Shown one piece after another: positions 26,457-29,018 of a stretch of DNA of 29,038 bases (the stretch's first letter is position 1; every line of letters begins with the position of its first letter). The notes below the pieces were generated by a model that was given only the letters and a program-made list of their open reading frames with translations, was not told where the DNA came from and did not search any database. Origin of the DNA: a virus; the IMG/VR virus record IMGVR_UViG_3300020470_000148, positions 1-29,038 of that record; one strand, given 5' to 3'. The position numbers and the translations under genes are program-made.

Positions 26457-27010
26457 AAACTAAAAGATGCTACTTTACATTTGGTAGGTTTCAACCACCT
26501 ACTACAGGACACAAAGATAACTTTGCTGGTCTAAAGCAGGCTGCTGGATCAGATGACTACAGGATTTATATTTCACAGACAGTAGATTCAAAGGGTAACA
26601 ATCCATTAGATCCTAAGACAAAATTTAACTTTATGGTTAAAGCATTCCCTGAACATAGAGGGCATATTTTTAGTGGACCTAGACAACCAGTAGAGATATT
26701 ACAACAGTTGATGACGGATGGATATGATGAGGTTATATTCCTTGTAGGATCTGATCGTGTTAGTGCCATGCAATTCTTGCATAAATATAATGGTAAAGAC
26801 TTCTCATTCAGAAAGATTGAGATAAAATCTTCAGGCAGTAGAGACGCAGATGGTGATACGTTTGCCGTATCTGGTACGAAGATGAGACGAGCAGCGAAAT
26901 CTCTTGATTTTAAAACGTTTCGTTCTGGTATACCAAAGTCACTATCTGATGCTGACTGCAAGACACTGATGAAAGTTATTTCTGCTAACCTTCCGTCAAA
27001 TTATAAATGA
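26447..27010 (+). CDS. Cytidylyltransferase / NMN-adenylyltransferase-like enzyme
   Basis: A 187-residue Rossmann-type nucleotidyltransferase. The nucleotide-binding start FGRFQPPTTGHKDNF (12-26) carries TxGH in place of HxGH; GSDR (101-104) and VSGTKMRR (141-148), the ISxTxxR motif, complete the set. Such enzymes join NTPs to NMN, pantetheine phosphate, glycerol phosphate and similar. NMN adenylyltransferase (NadM type) is the closest by pattern, but substrate residues cannot be judged. It overlaps the ligase-like gene by 10 bases, so they probably act in one pathway. Confidence 0.7.
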   Translation: MALETKRCYFTFGRFQPPTTGHKDNFAGLKQAAGSDDYRIYISQTVDSKGNNPLDPKTKFNFMVKAFPEHRGHIFSGPRQPVEILQQLMTDGYDEVIFLVGSDRVSAMQFLHKYNGKDFSFRKIEIKSSGSRDADGDTFAVSGTKMRRAAKSLDFKTFRSGIPKSLSDADCKTLMKVISANLPSNYK

Positions 27011-27288
27011 AAACTTTTAGAGATCTAAAAGAACAAGCGATCAGACAGAACTTCCGTAGGAAGGAATTGTTTGTTGAAGGACAAACTGTAATGAATAGTC
27101 AGACTGGTGTTAAAGGAGAAATCATTCGCACTGGTCCGAACTATGTTATATGCGTCACTGAAGGCGGTGAGATGTTTCGTGCGTGGGTACGTGACATAAG
27201 AGAAGTCAATGAAAGTATAAATAAACCCAGAAGAACAACCTTTTTTACTCATGGAAAAGCAACCACCATCAACATCCGTTCGTCATAA
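27007..27288 (+). CDS. Small SH3-like protein of unknown function
   Basis: A 93-residue protein: a basic helix at the start (MKTFRDLKEQAIRQNFRRKE), then EGQTVMNSQTGVKGEIIRTG, NYVICVTEGGEMF and AWVRDIREV, a five-strand pattern like an SH3 or KOW barrel, then a basic tail. The EGQ-x-VMN-x-x-TG-x-x-GEI block looks like a conserved domain. It overlaps its upstream neighbour by four bases (ATGA) and the next gene by 38, and contains that gene's late promoter in its coding sequence. The function is unknown. Confidence 0.65.
   Translation: MKTFRDLKEQAIRQNFRRKELFVEGQTVMNSQTGVKGEIIRTGPNYVICVTEGGEMFRAWVRDIREVNESINKPRRTTFFTHGKATTINIRSS
27216..27223 (+). promoter_or_regulatory. Exact T4-type late promoter TATAAATA
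   Basis: TATAAATA is the full T4 late consensus, here inside the coding region of the preceding gene and 27 bases before the ATG at 27251. Initiation would be expected near 27229, giving a leader of about 20 bases. The best late promoter in the window. Confidence 0.65.
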
Positions 27289-27874
27289 CGACGATTTTTC
27301 TAAGTCTTTAATTGAATCCTATGCTAACTGGATGAGTGGAGAAGGCTTCCAGCAGAGTACTCTTGAGGAGAGTATTCCTGCCGAGCAAAAGCAAGGTGGA
27401 ACTAGTGGTGAAGGAACTGTTCAGACACCTATTGGTTCTTATGAGAAACCAACTTTCGATACAAAGGCAATCCCTGTTATCGATAAGAAGGTAAATCCTG
27501 ATGATTTTTCTAAGAAGGATCCTAAAGCAAATGCTGGTGCTCCTGATAGTACAAAGATCAAGCAGTCACATGGTGCTGAGATAAAGGATGTTACTAAGGT
27601 TCCTGCTGCTATTGCTAGAGAAGAGGTTGAGTGTTGTTCTAAGTGTGGTAAACCAATACATGAAGGTTCTTGTGCTCCTAAGTCAACTAAAGAAGAGTTA
27701 GAAAAGCAGTTGGATGATGTTCTTACACAACTTAGTGAGTTAACTGAGTCAACATATACAGTAACTCATGAGAAGTGGGAGAAAAAAGAGAAGACAGAAG
27801 AAGAATTAAAGGAAGAGAAGGCTGCTAAGAAGAAAGCAGTGAAGAAGATTATGGCTTATGCCTCAAAAAAGTAA
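27251..27874 (+). CDS. Zinc-finger, lysine-rich protein; short (zero-frame) product
   Basis: The zero-frame product has 207 residues. The N-terminus is polar with a short helix (FSKSLIESYANWMSG), then a P/T/K-rich linker (about 45-115), then a probable zinc-binding knuckle CCSKCGKPIHEGSC (about 129-142) and a charged coiled-coil-like end rich in E and K. It stops at TAA 27872-27874 straight after the heptamer A AAA AAG. A -1 slip there would add 50 residues (see 27865-27909 and 27871-28023). An exact late promoter precedes it. A virion or assembly role is plausible from late expression but not shown. Confidence 0.7.
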   Translation: MEKQPPSTSVRHNDDFSKSLIESYANWMSGEGFQQSTLEESIPAEQKQGGTSGEGTVQTPIGSYEKPTFDTKAIPVIDKKVNPDDFSKKDPKANAGAPDSTKIKQSHGAEIKDVTKVPAAIAREEVECCSKCGKPIHEGSCAPKSTKEELEKQLDDVLTQLSELTESTYTVTHEKWEKKEKTEEELKEEKAAKKKAVKKIMAYASKK

Positions 27875-27909
27875 AGCGGTCTTGTTCTGAAGAGGCGAAG
27901 TCTAAGACC
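27865..27909 (+). promoter_or_regulatory. Candidate programmed -1 ribosomal frameshift site
   Basis: A AAA AAG (27865-27871) is in the right phase for the zero frame (codons TCA AAA AAG TAA) and is the same heptamer used by E. coli dnaX. Six bases later GGTCTT (27878-27883) pairs with AAGACC (27904-27909), with a further G-U pair, forming a stem around a 20-base loop. The zero-frame stop is the next codon after the slip site. The spacing fits known bacterial -1 sites. No clear Shine-Dalgarno stimulator lies upstream. A real A7 run lost by sequencing or assembly would look the same. Confidence 0.65.
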
Positions 27910-28023
27910 AAGAAGAAAAAGAAGACTGTAGAGATCATGCCTGATCTGGATGATGGTAAGGATCCAAAACATCCAAAGAAAAAGCCTGATATATATGTAA
28001 AAGACACAACGAACATCGGATGA
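27871..28023 (+). CDS. -1 frame extension of the zinc-finger, lysine-rich protein
   Basis: After a -1 slip at 27865-27871 translation reads VKRSCSEEAKSKTKKKKKTV then about 30 more residues (PDLDDGKDPKHPKKKPDIYV, ending TTNIG) to TGA 28021-28023, making a 257-residue fusion. The lysine-rich composition continues smoothly across the join. The -1 frame is open only from 27829 and has no ATG before 27937, so the basic part can be reached only by frameshifting. Its TGA overlaps the next gene's ATG as ATGA, the coupling used throughout this genome. An independent 28-residue gene from ATG 27937 is the alternative. Confidence 0.6.
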   Translation, partial: VKRSCSEEAKSKTKKKKKTVEIMPDLDDGKDPKHPKKKPDIYVKDTTNIG

Positions 28024-28406
28024 CCTATTACGGAGTCAGCAGATATATTCCTTATGATCCGTGGTTTCATGATAGACCACACAACCCCCTTGATGATATG
28101 CCTATAGCAACTGATAACACTGACCCTGAAGTTAAGTGTTATATTGATGAAGACGAAGTAGATTGTGAGAGTTGGGAACCTAAAACTTATGCATCACGAC
28201 ATGAGTCAACACCCGACCACGAGAAAGGTGCAGAAGAAGTAGTAACCATGCATGAAAAGATGTATCGTATGGCAACCGCAAGATACAATCCATTTTCTAT
28301 AGGTGGTTCAGAGAATTGTCATGCAGATATAGATTGTCCAACTGGTATAGGTGGTTCTGAAAATGCCTTTAAATTCCAAGGAGGTTCTGAGCAAGCACAT
28401 AAATAA
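28020..28406 (+). CDS. Acidic protein with C-terminal GGSE repeats
   Basis: A 128-residue acidic protein. It begins MTYYGVSRYIPYDPWFHDRP and has a very acidic middle (CYIDEDEVDCESWEP), a short helix (MHEKMYRMATARY), then three repeats: IGGSEN, IGGSEN and QGGSEQ. No family is recognised. The repeats and lack of large hydrophobic stretches suggest a partly unstructured virion or adaptor protein. It begins on the stop of the -1 frame extension and ends at a late-promoter motif. Confidence 0.6.
   Translation: MTYYGVSRYIPYDPWFHDRPHNPLDDMPIATDNTDPEVKCYIDEDEVDCESWEPKTYASRHESTPDHEKGAEEVVTMHEKMYRMATARYNPFSIGGSENCHADIDCPTGIGGSENAFKFQGGSEQAHK
28299..28394 (+). repeat. Three GGSE amino-acid repeats
   Basis: IGGSEN is encoded at 28299-28316 and 28347-28364, and QGGSEQ at 28377-28394. 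Spacing between repeat starts is 48 and 30 bases, so they are degenerate. Codons differ between copies (TCA/TCT, GAG/GAA), which suggests the peptide rather than the DNA is conserved. Confidence 0.6.
28398..28405 (+). promoter_or_regulatory. Candidate late promoter (CATAAATA) for the lipase
   Basis: CATAAATA differs from TATAAATA at the first base only. It overlaps the end of the preceding gene and lies 19 bases before the lipase ATG at 28425. No clear Shine-Dalgarno is seen in the T-rich leader. Confidence 0.55.
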
Positions 28407-28424: not shown

Positions 28425-29018
28425 ATGACATTAGGAAAAGAAGTCATCCTCGAAGCACTTAAGTGTTGTCGGGATGTATACCCACACTCAGAAGATTTTT
28501 TAGTCAGTAGGAAAATTGCAGGACATACTATCCTTGCAGTAGAGGGAACTAAAGAGAAGACTGACTGGATAACCAATTTAAAGTTTCTCATTAAGAGAGA
28601 CGATTGCCACAGAGGATTTAAAAATAACTGTAATAGGACACTAGCACAACTAGTGGTTGCCTATGAGGGATTAAATCCTGAAAGAAAATTAGTGATAGCA
28701 GGACATTCACTTGGTGGTGCTACTGCTACATTGATTGCTGATCTCCTATGGGAGTCAGGTAATAAGAATATTGCATTGGTTACTGCTGGATCACCTAGAC
28801 CAGGTGGACGCAGACTTAGAAAAAGAATCAAAGACCTAGAACATTTGCGTTTTGTTCATGGTGATGATATAGTGCCTGGTACACCTCCATGGCTTGCTGG
28901 ATATGTTCATACTCATCCAGTTATCAAACTAGAAGACGAAAAAGATACTCGTTTTGATGGTGTTGCTGACCATAATATAGGTGACTATTATGAAGCAGCT
29001 CTCAAATATTATAAATAA
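28425..29018 (+). CDS. Class-3 lipase-like alpha/beta hydrolase
   Basis: A 197-residue hydrolase of the lipase class 3 type. The nucleophile elbow is GHSLG (93-97, S95), then VTAGSPRPGG, an acid in FVHGDDIVPG (D147 or D148) and a histidine in ADHNIGDYY (H183), the order and spacing seen in fungal-type lipases. No signal peptide is evident. It may act on host membrane lipids during lysis, or be carried in the virion; both are inferred from its late-type promoter. The last 20 bases of the window after its stop hold nothing recognisable. Confidence 0.8.
   Translation: MTLGKEVILEALKCCRDVYPHSEDFLVSRKIAGHTILAVEGTKEKTDWITNLKFLIKRDDCHRGFKNNCNRTLAQLVVAYEGLNPERKLVIAGHSLGGATATLIADLLWESGNKNIALVTAGSPRPGGRRLRKRIKDLEHLRFVHGDDIVPGTPPWLAGYVHTHPVIKLEDEKDTRFDGVADHNIGDYYEAALKYYK

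Follow-up and report, generated by a model that had tools for sequence, protein, structure and literature searches.

Our analysis indicates that a presumably late gene of a T4-like cyanophage very probably gives rise to two predicted proteins through -1 programmed ribosomal frameshifting at the slippery heptamer A_AAA_AAG, a reading that is drawn from comparative sequence analysis. A first-pass annotation of this DNA had proposed such a frameshift, and the proposal is strongly supported by the conservation of the heptamer, by compensatory changes in the stem that follows it and by selection on the -1 tail.

Gene layout and predicted products

The window (the whole stretch of DNA analysed, 29,038 bases) comes from a T4-like cyanophage, and the homologues of the gene fall in Kyanoviridae (cyanomyoviruses). 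The gene order in the window was DNA polymerase, UvsX, DnaB-like helicase, DUF6267, cytidylyltransferase, a 93-aa ORF, the frameshift gene, a 128-aa ORF and a lipase. The features of the locus were as follows.

27216..27223, + strand: T4-type late-promoter-like element, TATAAATA, upstream of the gene; putative function
27251..27874, + strand: zero-frame ORF, 207 codons/207 aa, member of the PHROG 4359 / T4-GC 842 family
27865..27871, + strand: slippery heptamer A_AAA_AAG, in phase as X_XXY_YYZ and adjoining the zero-frame stop; read directly, invariant in 99/99
27872..27874, + strand: zero-frame stop TAA; read directly
27872..27877, + strand: spacer of 6 nt from heptamer to stem; read directly
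27878..27884, + strand: 5' arm of the stem, GGTCTT (27878-27883) plus G, beginning 6 nt past the heptamer; predicted to be stimulatory
27903..27909, + strand: 3' arm of the stem, T plus AAGACC (27904-27909), pairing with GGTCTT; predicted to be stimulatory
27871..28023, + strand: lysine-rich -1 frame extension, 50 aa after KK, giving 257 aa in total, with TGA at 28021-28023
27928..27957, + strand: conserved V-E-I-M-P-D-L-D-D-G motif in the -1 tail, holding the first -1 frame ATG at 27937
28020..28406, + strand: next ORF, 128 aa, in ATGA overlap with the -1 frame end

This layout agrees with what the first-pass annotation had described, namely the in-phase heptamer next to the stop, the stem GGTCTT/AAGACC beginning six bases past it, forms of 207 and 257 residues differing by a 50-residue -1 extension, the lack of any -1 frame ATG before 27937, and the ATGA overlap with the next gene; at the same junction between the -1 frame end and the next ORF, L002 and L003 have TAATG.

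In the proposed mechanism, the single tRNA-Lys(UUU) of the host would read A_AAA_AAG at the gene end, a fraction of the ribosomes would slip back one base and so bypass the adjacent zero-frame stop, and the slipped ribosomes would append a conserved lysine-rich tail carrying the motif [VIL]-E-[IV]-M-P. In most relatives two elements may aid the slip, an internal Shine-Dalgarno (SD)-like sequence located 7-11 nt upstream and a stem-loop that begins 6-7 nt downstream, and in the window the stem would be the only helper. The outcome would be a short form of 207 aa and a long form of 257 aa with a common N-terminus. The conserved signal, frame and stem, the selection on the tail and the host tRNA content are shown by the present analysis; slippage in this gene and its rate we infer.

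The zero-frame protein of the window matched phrog_4359 (E 2.8e-27), and the record of the S-WAM2 homologue bears the note 'T4-like GC842'. Searches of Pfam and PHROGs gave no named function for the zero-frame part or the -1 tail; the tail of S-PM2 had a sub-threshold Pfam match to DUF3008. The lysine-rich -1 tail is probably disordered. The first-pass annotation had called the gene a zinc-finger protein, a description that we abandoned as a feature of the family, the Cys motif being absent from the closest relatives L002 and L003.

A conserved putative slip site

Viral contigs and annotated phages were scanned for homologues, and 173 distinct ones had a zero-frame gene with a complete 3' end. 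Ninety-nine of them, whose proteins start with MERQ, MEKQ or MDKQ, form the heptamer clade, which includes the cultured phages S-PM2, Syn1, S-RIM44, S-CAM1, S-CAM3 and S-H9-2. All 99 carry A_AAA_AAG in phase immediately before the stop, and none has an uninterrupted frame or lacks the heptamer, so that the comparison with homologues suggested by the first-pass annotation came out in favour of its proposal. The stop itself varies (TAA in 57, TGA in 35 and TAG in 7), and the codon before AAA AAG is GAA, TCA, GCA or GGA, each with A as its last base. On its own the heptamer is no rarity in the window (7 AAAAAAG observed, 8.5 expected), and a chance origin was ruled out by its occurrence before the stop in 99/99 as against 0/912 at the other Lys-Lys sites of these genes. 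The chance of the heptamer given the amino acids was about 10^-35 when 37 divergent representatives were treated as independent, a value that is merely indicative because these representatives are related. On a quick tree of the N-terminal region built with FastTree, the heptamer and ATGA states (the latter described below) were separated by a single change with a support of 100, and the 99 are therefore not independent events; the conservation has one origin. The N-terminal regions in the clade share only about 40-60% identity and the heptamer is kept throughout, and the 99 of 99 show a long maintenance of the putative slip site across divergent N-terminal regions.

The site is a homopolymer in a metagenome contig, where an assembly or sequencing indel might be suspected, or else a recently broken gene. 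Such an origin has a negligible probability here: the sequence recurs in 99 distinct homologues, genomes of cultured phages among them, the stop codons differ, and the tail is under purifying selection. In particular, an A7 assembly error in the window is very unlikely, judging from the agreement of independent contigs with cultured genomes. Slippage of the RNA polymerase, by which one A would be inserted in the run so that some mRNAs encode the fusion in-frame, would exploit the same 6-7 A, and one extra A does restore the frame. We nevertheless regard this transcriptional route as highly improbable, since the run is just A6 where the codon before AAA AAG is TCA, GCA or GGA, as in 23/99 members including the window, the last base of the heptamer is always G, the run is never longer, and an RNA stem and an SD-like element at ribosomal spacing would be needless for it.

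Downstream stem, SD-like element and host tRNA

The stem of the window had a folding energy of -9.1 kcal/mol and a z of about -0.6, which alone is not significant. Among the representatives of the heptamer clade, the 45 nt after the stop folded better than dinucleotide shuffles, with a mean z of -2.85 (37 representatives) or -2.72 (42), and windows 45-90 nt away had no such excess; at the same 45-nt position the z of the ATGA clade was -0.68. The first pair of the stem lies 6-7 nt 3' of the heptamer in 34/42 representatives, within the distance of about 5-9 nt at which a downstream structure is expected in bacterial and phage -1 frameshifts, and the structure is weak in the window when taken alone.

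The compensatory changes that the first-pass annotation had named as a check are present. Alignment A3 contained the changes 5-44 GC->CG, 8-41 AU->UA and 20-32 GC->AU. In the ASVE group six pairs were altered on both sides, and the covariation score exceeded all 500 shuffles and all slid versions, the slid control being somewhat generous because the ASVE structure was derived from one member. In the group of the window the arms occur as GGTCTT/AAGACC, GGTCTT/AAGGCC, AGTCTTG/CAAGACT and AGGCTTG/CAAGCCT, and compensatory forms of the stem occur in L002, L003, L008, L071 and L053.

Upstream of the heptamer, matches to the anti-SD sequence, for which the common bacterial one was used, peaked 7-11 nt 5' of the site and surpassed synonymous shuffles (z -6.6). 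An SD-like element was found at this distance in 36/42 representatives and the other six all carry the stem, so that each of the 42 possesses at least one of the two, an SD-like element or a stem reaching -8 kcal/mol. The window belongs with the stem-only cases, no SD-like sequence being recognisable upstream of its heptamer. As to the host, the genome of Synechococcus WH7803, on which S-PM2 grows, was searched with Rfam plus ARAGORN and had 43 tRNA genes above the Rfam cut-off, with a single tRNA-Lys, of anticodon UUU.

The -1 frame as coding sequence

Throughout the heptamer clade (99 members) the -1 frame is open and carries [VIL]-E-[IV]-M-P, with VQIMP in one member and one ended by the contig edge. 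Between the slip site and the motif, the -1 frame was free of stops in 28 ungapped representatives, in 21 and 15 of which the other two frames were interrupted. The pN/pS of the -1 tail was 0.50 over the seven codons before the motif Met and 0.32 after it, and for the tails of the window, L002 and L003 it was 0.25 in the -1 frame, the two other frames giving 0.81 and 1.45. As judged by these ratios, the -1 tail is under purifying selection. The segment before the Met is also homologous to internal residues of a stand-alone protein of the sister clade (NEACGCDD...VEIMP and REECGCDK...VEVMP), and that protein matches PHROG 12887 over its full length, the tail of the window matching the same family with E 5.8e-4.

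These data bear on termination-reinitiation, by which two separate proteins would be made with a restart at a nearby -1 start, either in a GTGA overlap or at the ATG of VEVMP. Public annotations of relatives do put the second CDS at the motif Met or at a GTG, or omit it, and in the cultured genomes examined the two parts were annotated as unrelated hypothetical genes or the tail was unannotated. ATGA overlaps do occur in the sister clade (74/74), and a GTG start codon overlaps the stop in 34/99 heptamer-clade members, in which reinitiation could therefore contribute. A start at the VEVMP Met as the sole explanation was ruled out, because conservation at the protein level already extends over the codons before the Met (the pN/pS of 0.50 and the homology to internal residues of the sister-clade protein). 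Moreover, 24/99 members have no ATG, GTG or TTG in the -1 frame between the heptamer and the motif, the first -1 frame ATG of L011 and AG-345-P14 comes only after 31-32 codons, and reinitiation would leave the invariant A_AAA_AAG and the stem at 6-7 nt unexplained. We consider it improbable as the general mode of expression of this gene, for which ribosomal frameshifting is the preferred reading.

The sister clade and evolution of the locus

The other 74 homologues form the sister (ATGA) clade, which includes S-RSM4, S-H9-1, ACG-2014e/h/i/j, S-CAM4, S-WAM2 and Sf-CH1b. In 74/74 of them the gene ends without the heptamer and ATGA stands at the stop, whereas an ATGA overlap at the zero-frame stop was found in 0/99 of the clade of the window. 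The two clades share the gene family, the locus, a homologous downstream segment and its relative frame; they differ in that the ATGA clade has neither heptamer nor stem and its tail is a stand-alone protein made from a stop/start overlap. Because this segment is a protein of its own in the sister clade, the locus offers a natural experiment on how stop/start coupling and frameshift fusion give way to one another. In one ATGA-clade member, L430, the first ORF ends in GGA AAA AAA TGA, and this possible intermediate between the two modes thus has an in-phase A_AAA_AAA together with ATGA.

Small modules were seen to change place at this locus, lying now in the zero frame, now in the -1 tail and now in a continuous ORF (CWKGY...VDNCVKAG; KLDPVGKEDKDIDNDGDHDKSDKYLLARRKK; ANIHAKRKRGG; a DUF3008-like module; KYERMVKHIKK...), in the different cyanophages represented by L047, L050, L054, L008, L011, L046, L143, L145 and L146. 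Where a different gene occupies this position (P-SSM2_195, ACG-2014f gp182, S-SRM01), some of these modules are found within a single uninterrupted frame. In P-SSM4 the genes past the cytidylyltransferase are linked in a chain by TAATG overlaps (L144:4286-4498). We tentatively put forward, as a possibility rather than an expectation, that one lineage swapped stop/start-coupled synthesis of two proteins for a frameshift fusion, or the reverse, and that the slip site might serve as a fixed joint for exchangeable -1 modules (CWKGY, DUF3008-like, DUF6321-like), fixing the ratio of tagged to untagged forms of a virion-associated protein.

Presumed late expression and neighbouring genes

The first-pass annotation had called the gene late, for which the TATAAATA motif at 27216-27223 is the only support. 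In the heptamer clade 76/98 members, and in the ATGA clade 74/74, have the same motif no more than 90 nt upstream of the gene (150/172 overall). The neighbouring cytidylyltransferase family T4-GC190 was detected in virions of S-SM1 and S-CREM2, and the next two ORFs were also found in S-CREM2 virions, linked to the present gene by position alone (PMC3037559, PMC10665884). Two or three genes further on, S-PM2, Syn1 and others have a 'head protein' gene. From the late-promoter-like motifs and these virion- and head-protein neighbours in relatives, we infer that the short and long forms make up a virion-associated or head-associated protein.

The 93-aa ORF (27007-27288) carries the database label ribonucleotide reductase alpha subunit or NrdB. 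This label is probably wrong, because in P-SSM2, P-SSM4 and others the cytidylyltransferase has this stretch at its C-terminus. The gene at 28425-29018 is class 3 lipase-like (PF01764, E 5.8e-20), and the same gene is found near the cytidylyltransferase locus of P-SSM2 as esterase/lipase.

Comparison with known frameshifts

The mechanism proposed is already known, and this gene family seems to provide a new example of it. The first-pass annotation knew of no description of frameshifting at this T4-like locus, and we likewise found no mention in the open-access papers searched, among them the main review, the paper on PRFect and the cyanophage paper on 16 genomes. The family adds a well-supported frameshifted gene in abundant marine phages, beyond the tail-chaperone and capsid cases, and predicts a protein product that is absent from current proteome databases.

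With the phage tail assembly chaperones G/GT the present gene shares a -1 shift close to its 3' end, which would yield a minor, C-terminally extended form. It differs in its place, which is after the genes for DNA polymerase, UvsX, DnaB-like helicase and cytidylyltransferase; the gene of the window has no homology to the chaperone families and does not stand before a tape measure gene. In the frameshifted capsid or Ig-like extensions of T3/T7 (gene 10), A2 and Listeria phages, too, a frameshift extends a presumed structural protein at its C-terminus. Here, unlike in those phages, the extension is a short lysine-rich tail with the VEVMP motif and exchangeable small modules, and Pfam gave no Ig-like domain. 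In the cyanophage hosts, the phr4/phr5 photolyase halves of marine Synechococcus are separated by seven G-C base pairs, for which a possible programmed frameshift has been suggested (PMC9426592), and such hosts may thus have a programmed frameshift too.

The closest likeness in signal is to dnaX of E. coli, a gene unrelated to this viral one, in which A_AAA_AAG is combined with a sole tRNA-Lys and a 5' SD (PMC5009743). The heptamer, the single host tRNA-Lys(UUU), the upstream SD-like element (in most relatives) and a downstream stem at similar spacing are shared with it (PMC5009743). In the dnaX type the 5' SD stimulator is some 9-14 nt away from the shift site; here the element stands 7-11 nt before the heptamer in 36/42 and is absent in the window. 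The frameshifted product of E. coli dnaX is the short one, whereas here the stop adjoins the slip site and the frameshifted product would be the long one, as it is in a minority of bacterial dnaX genes (PMC5009743).
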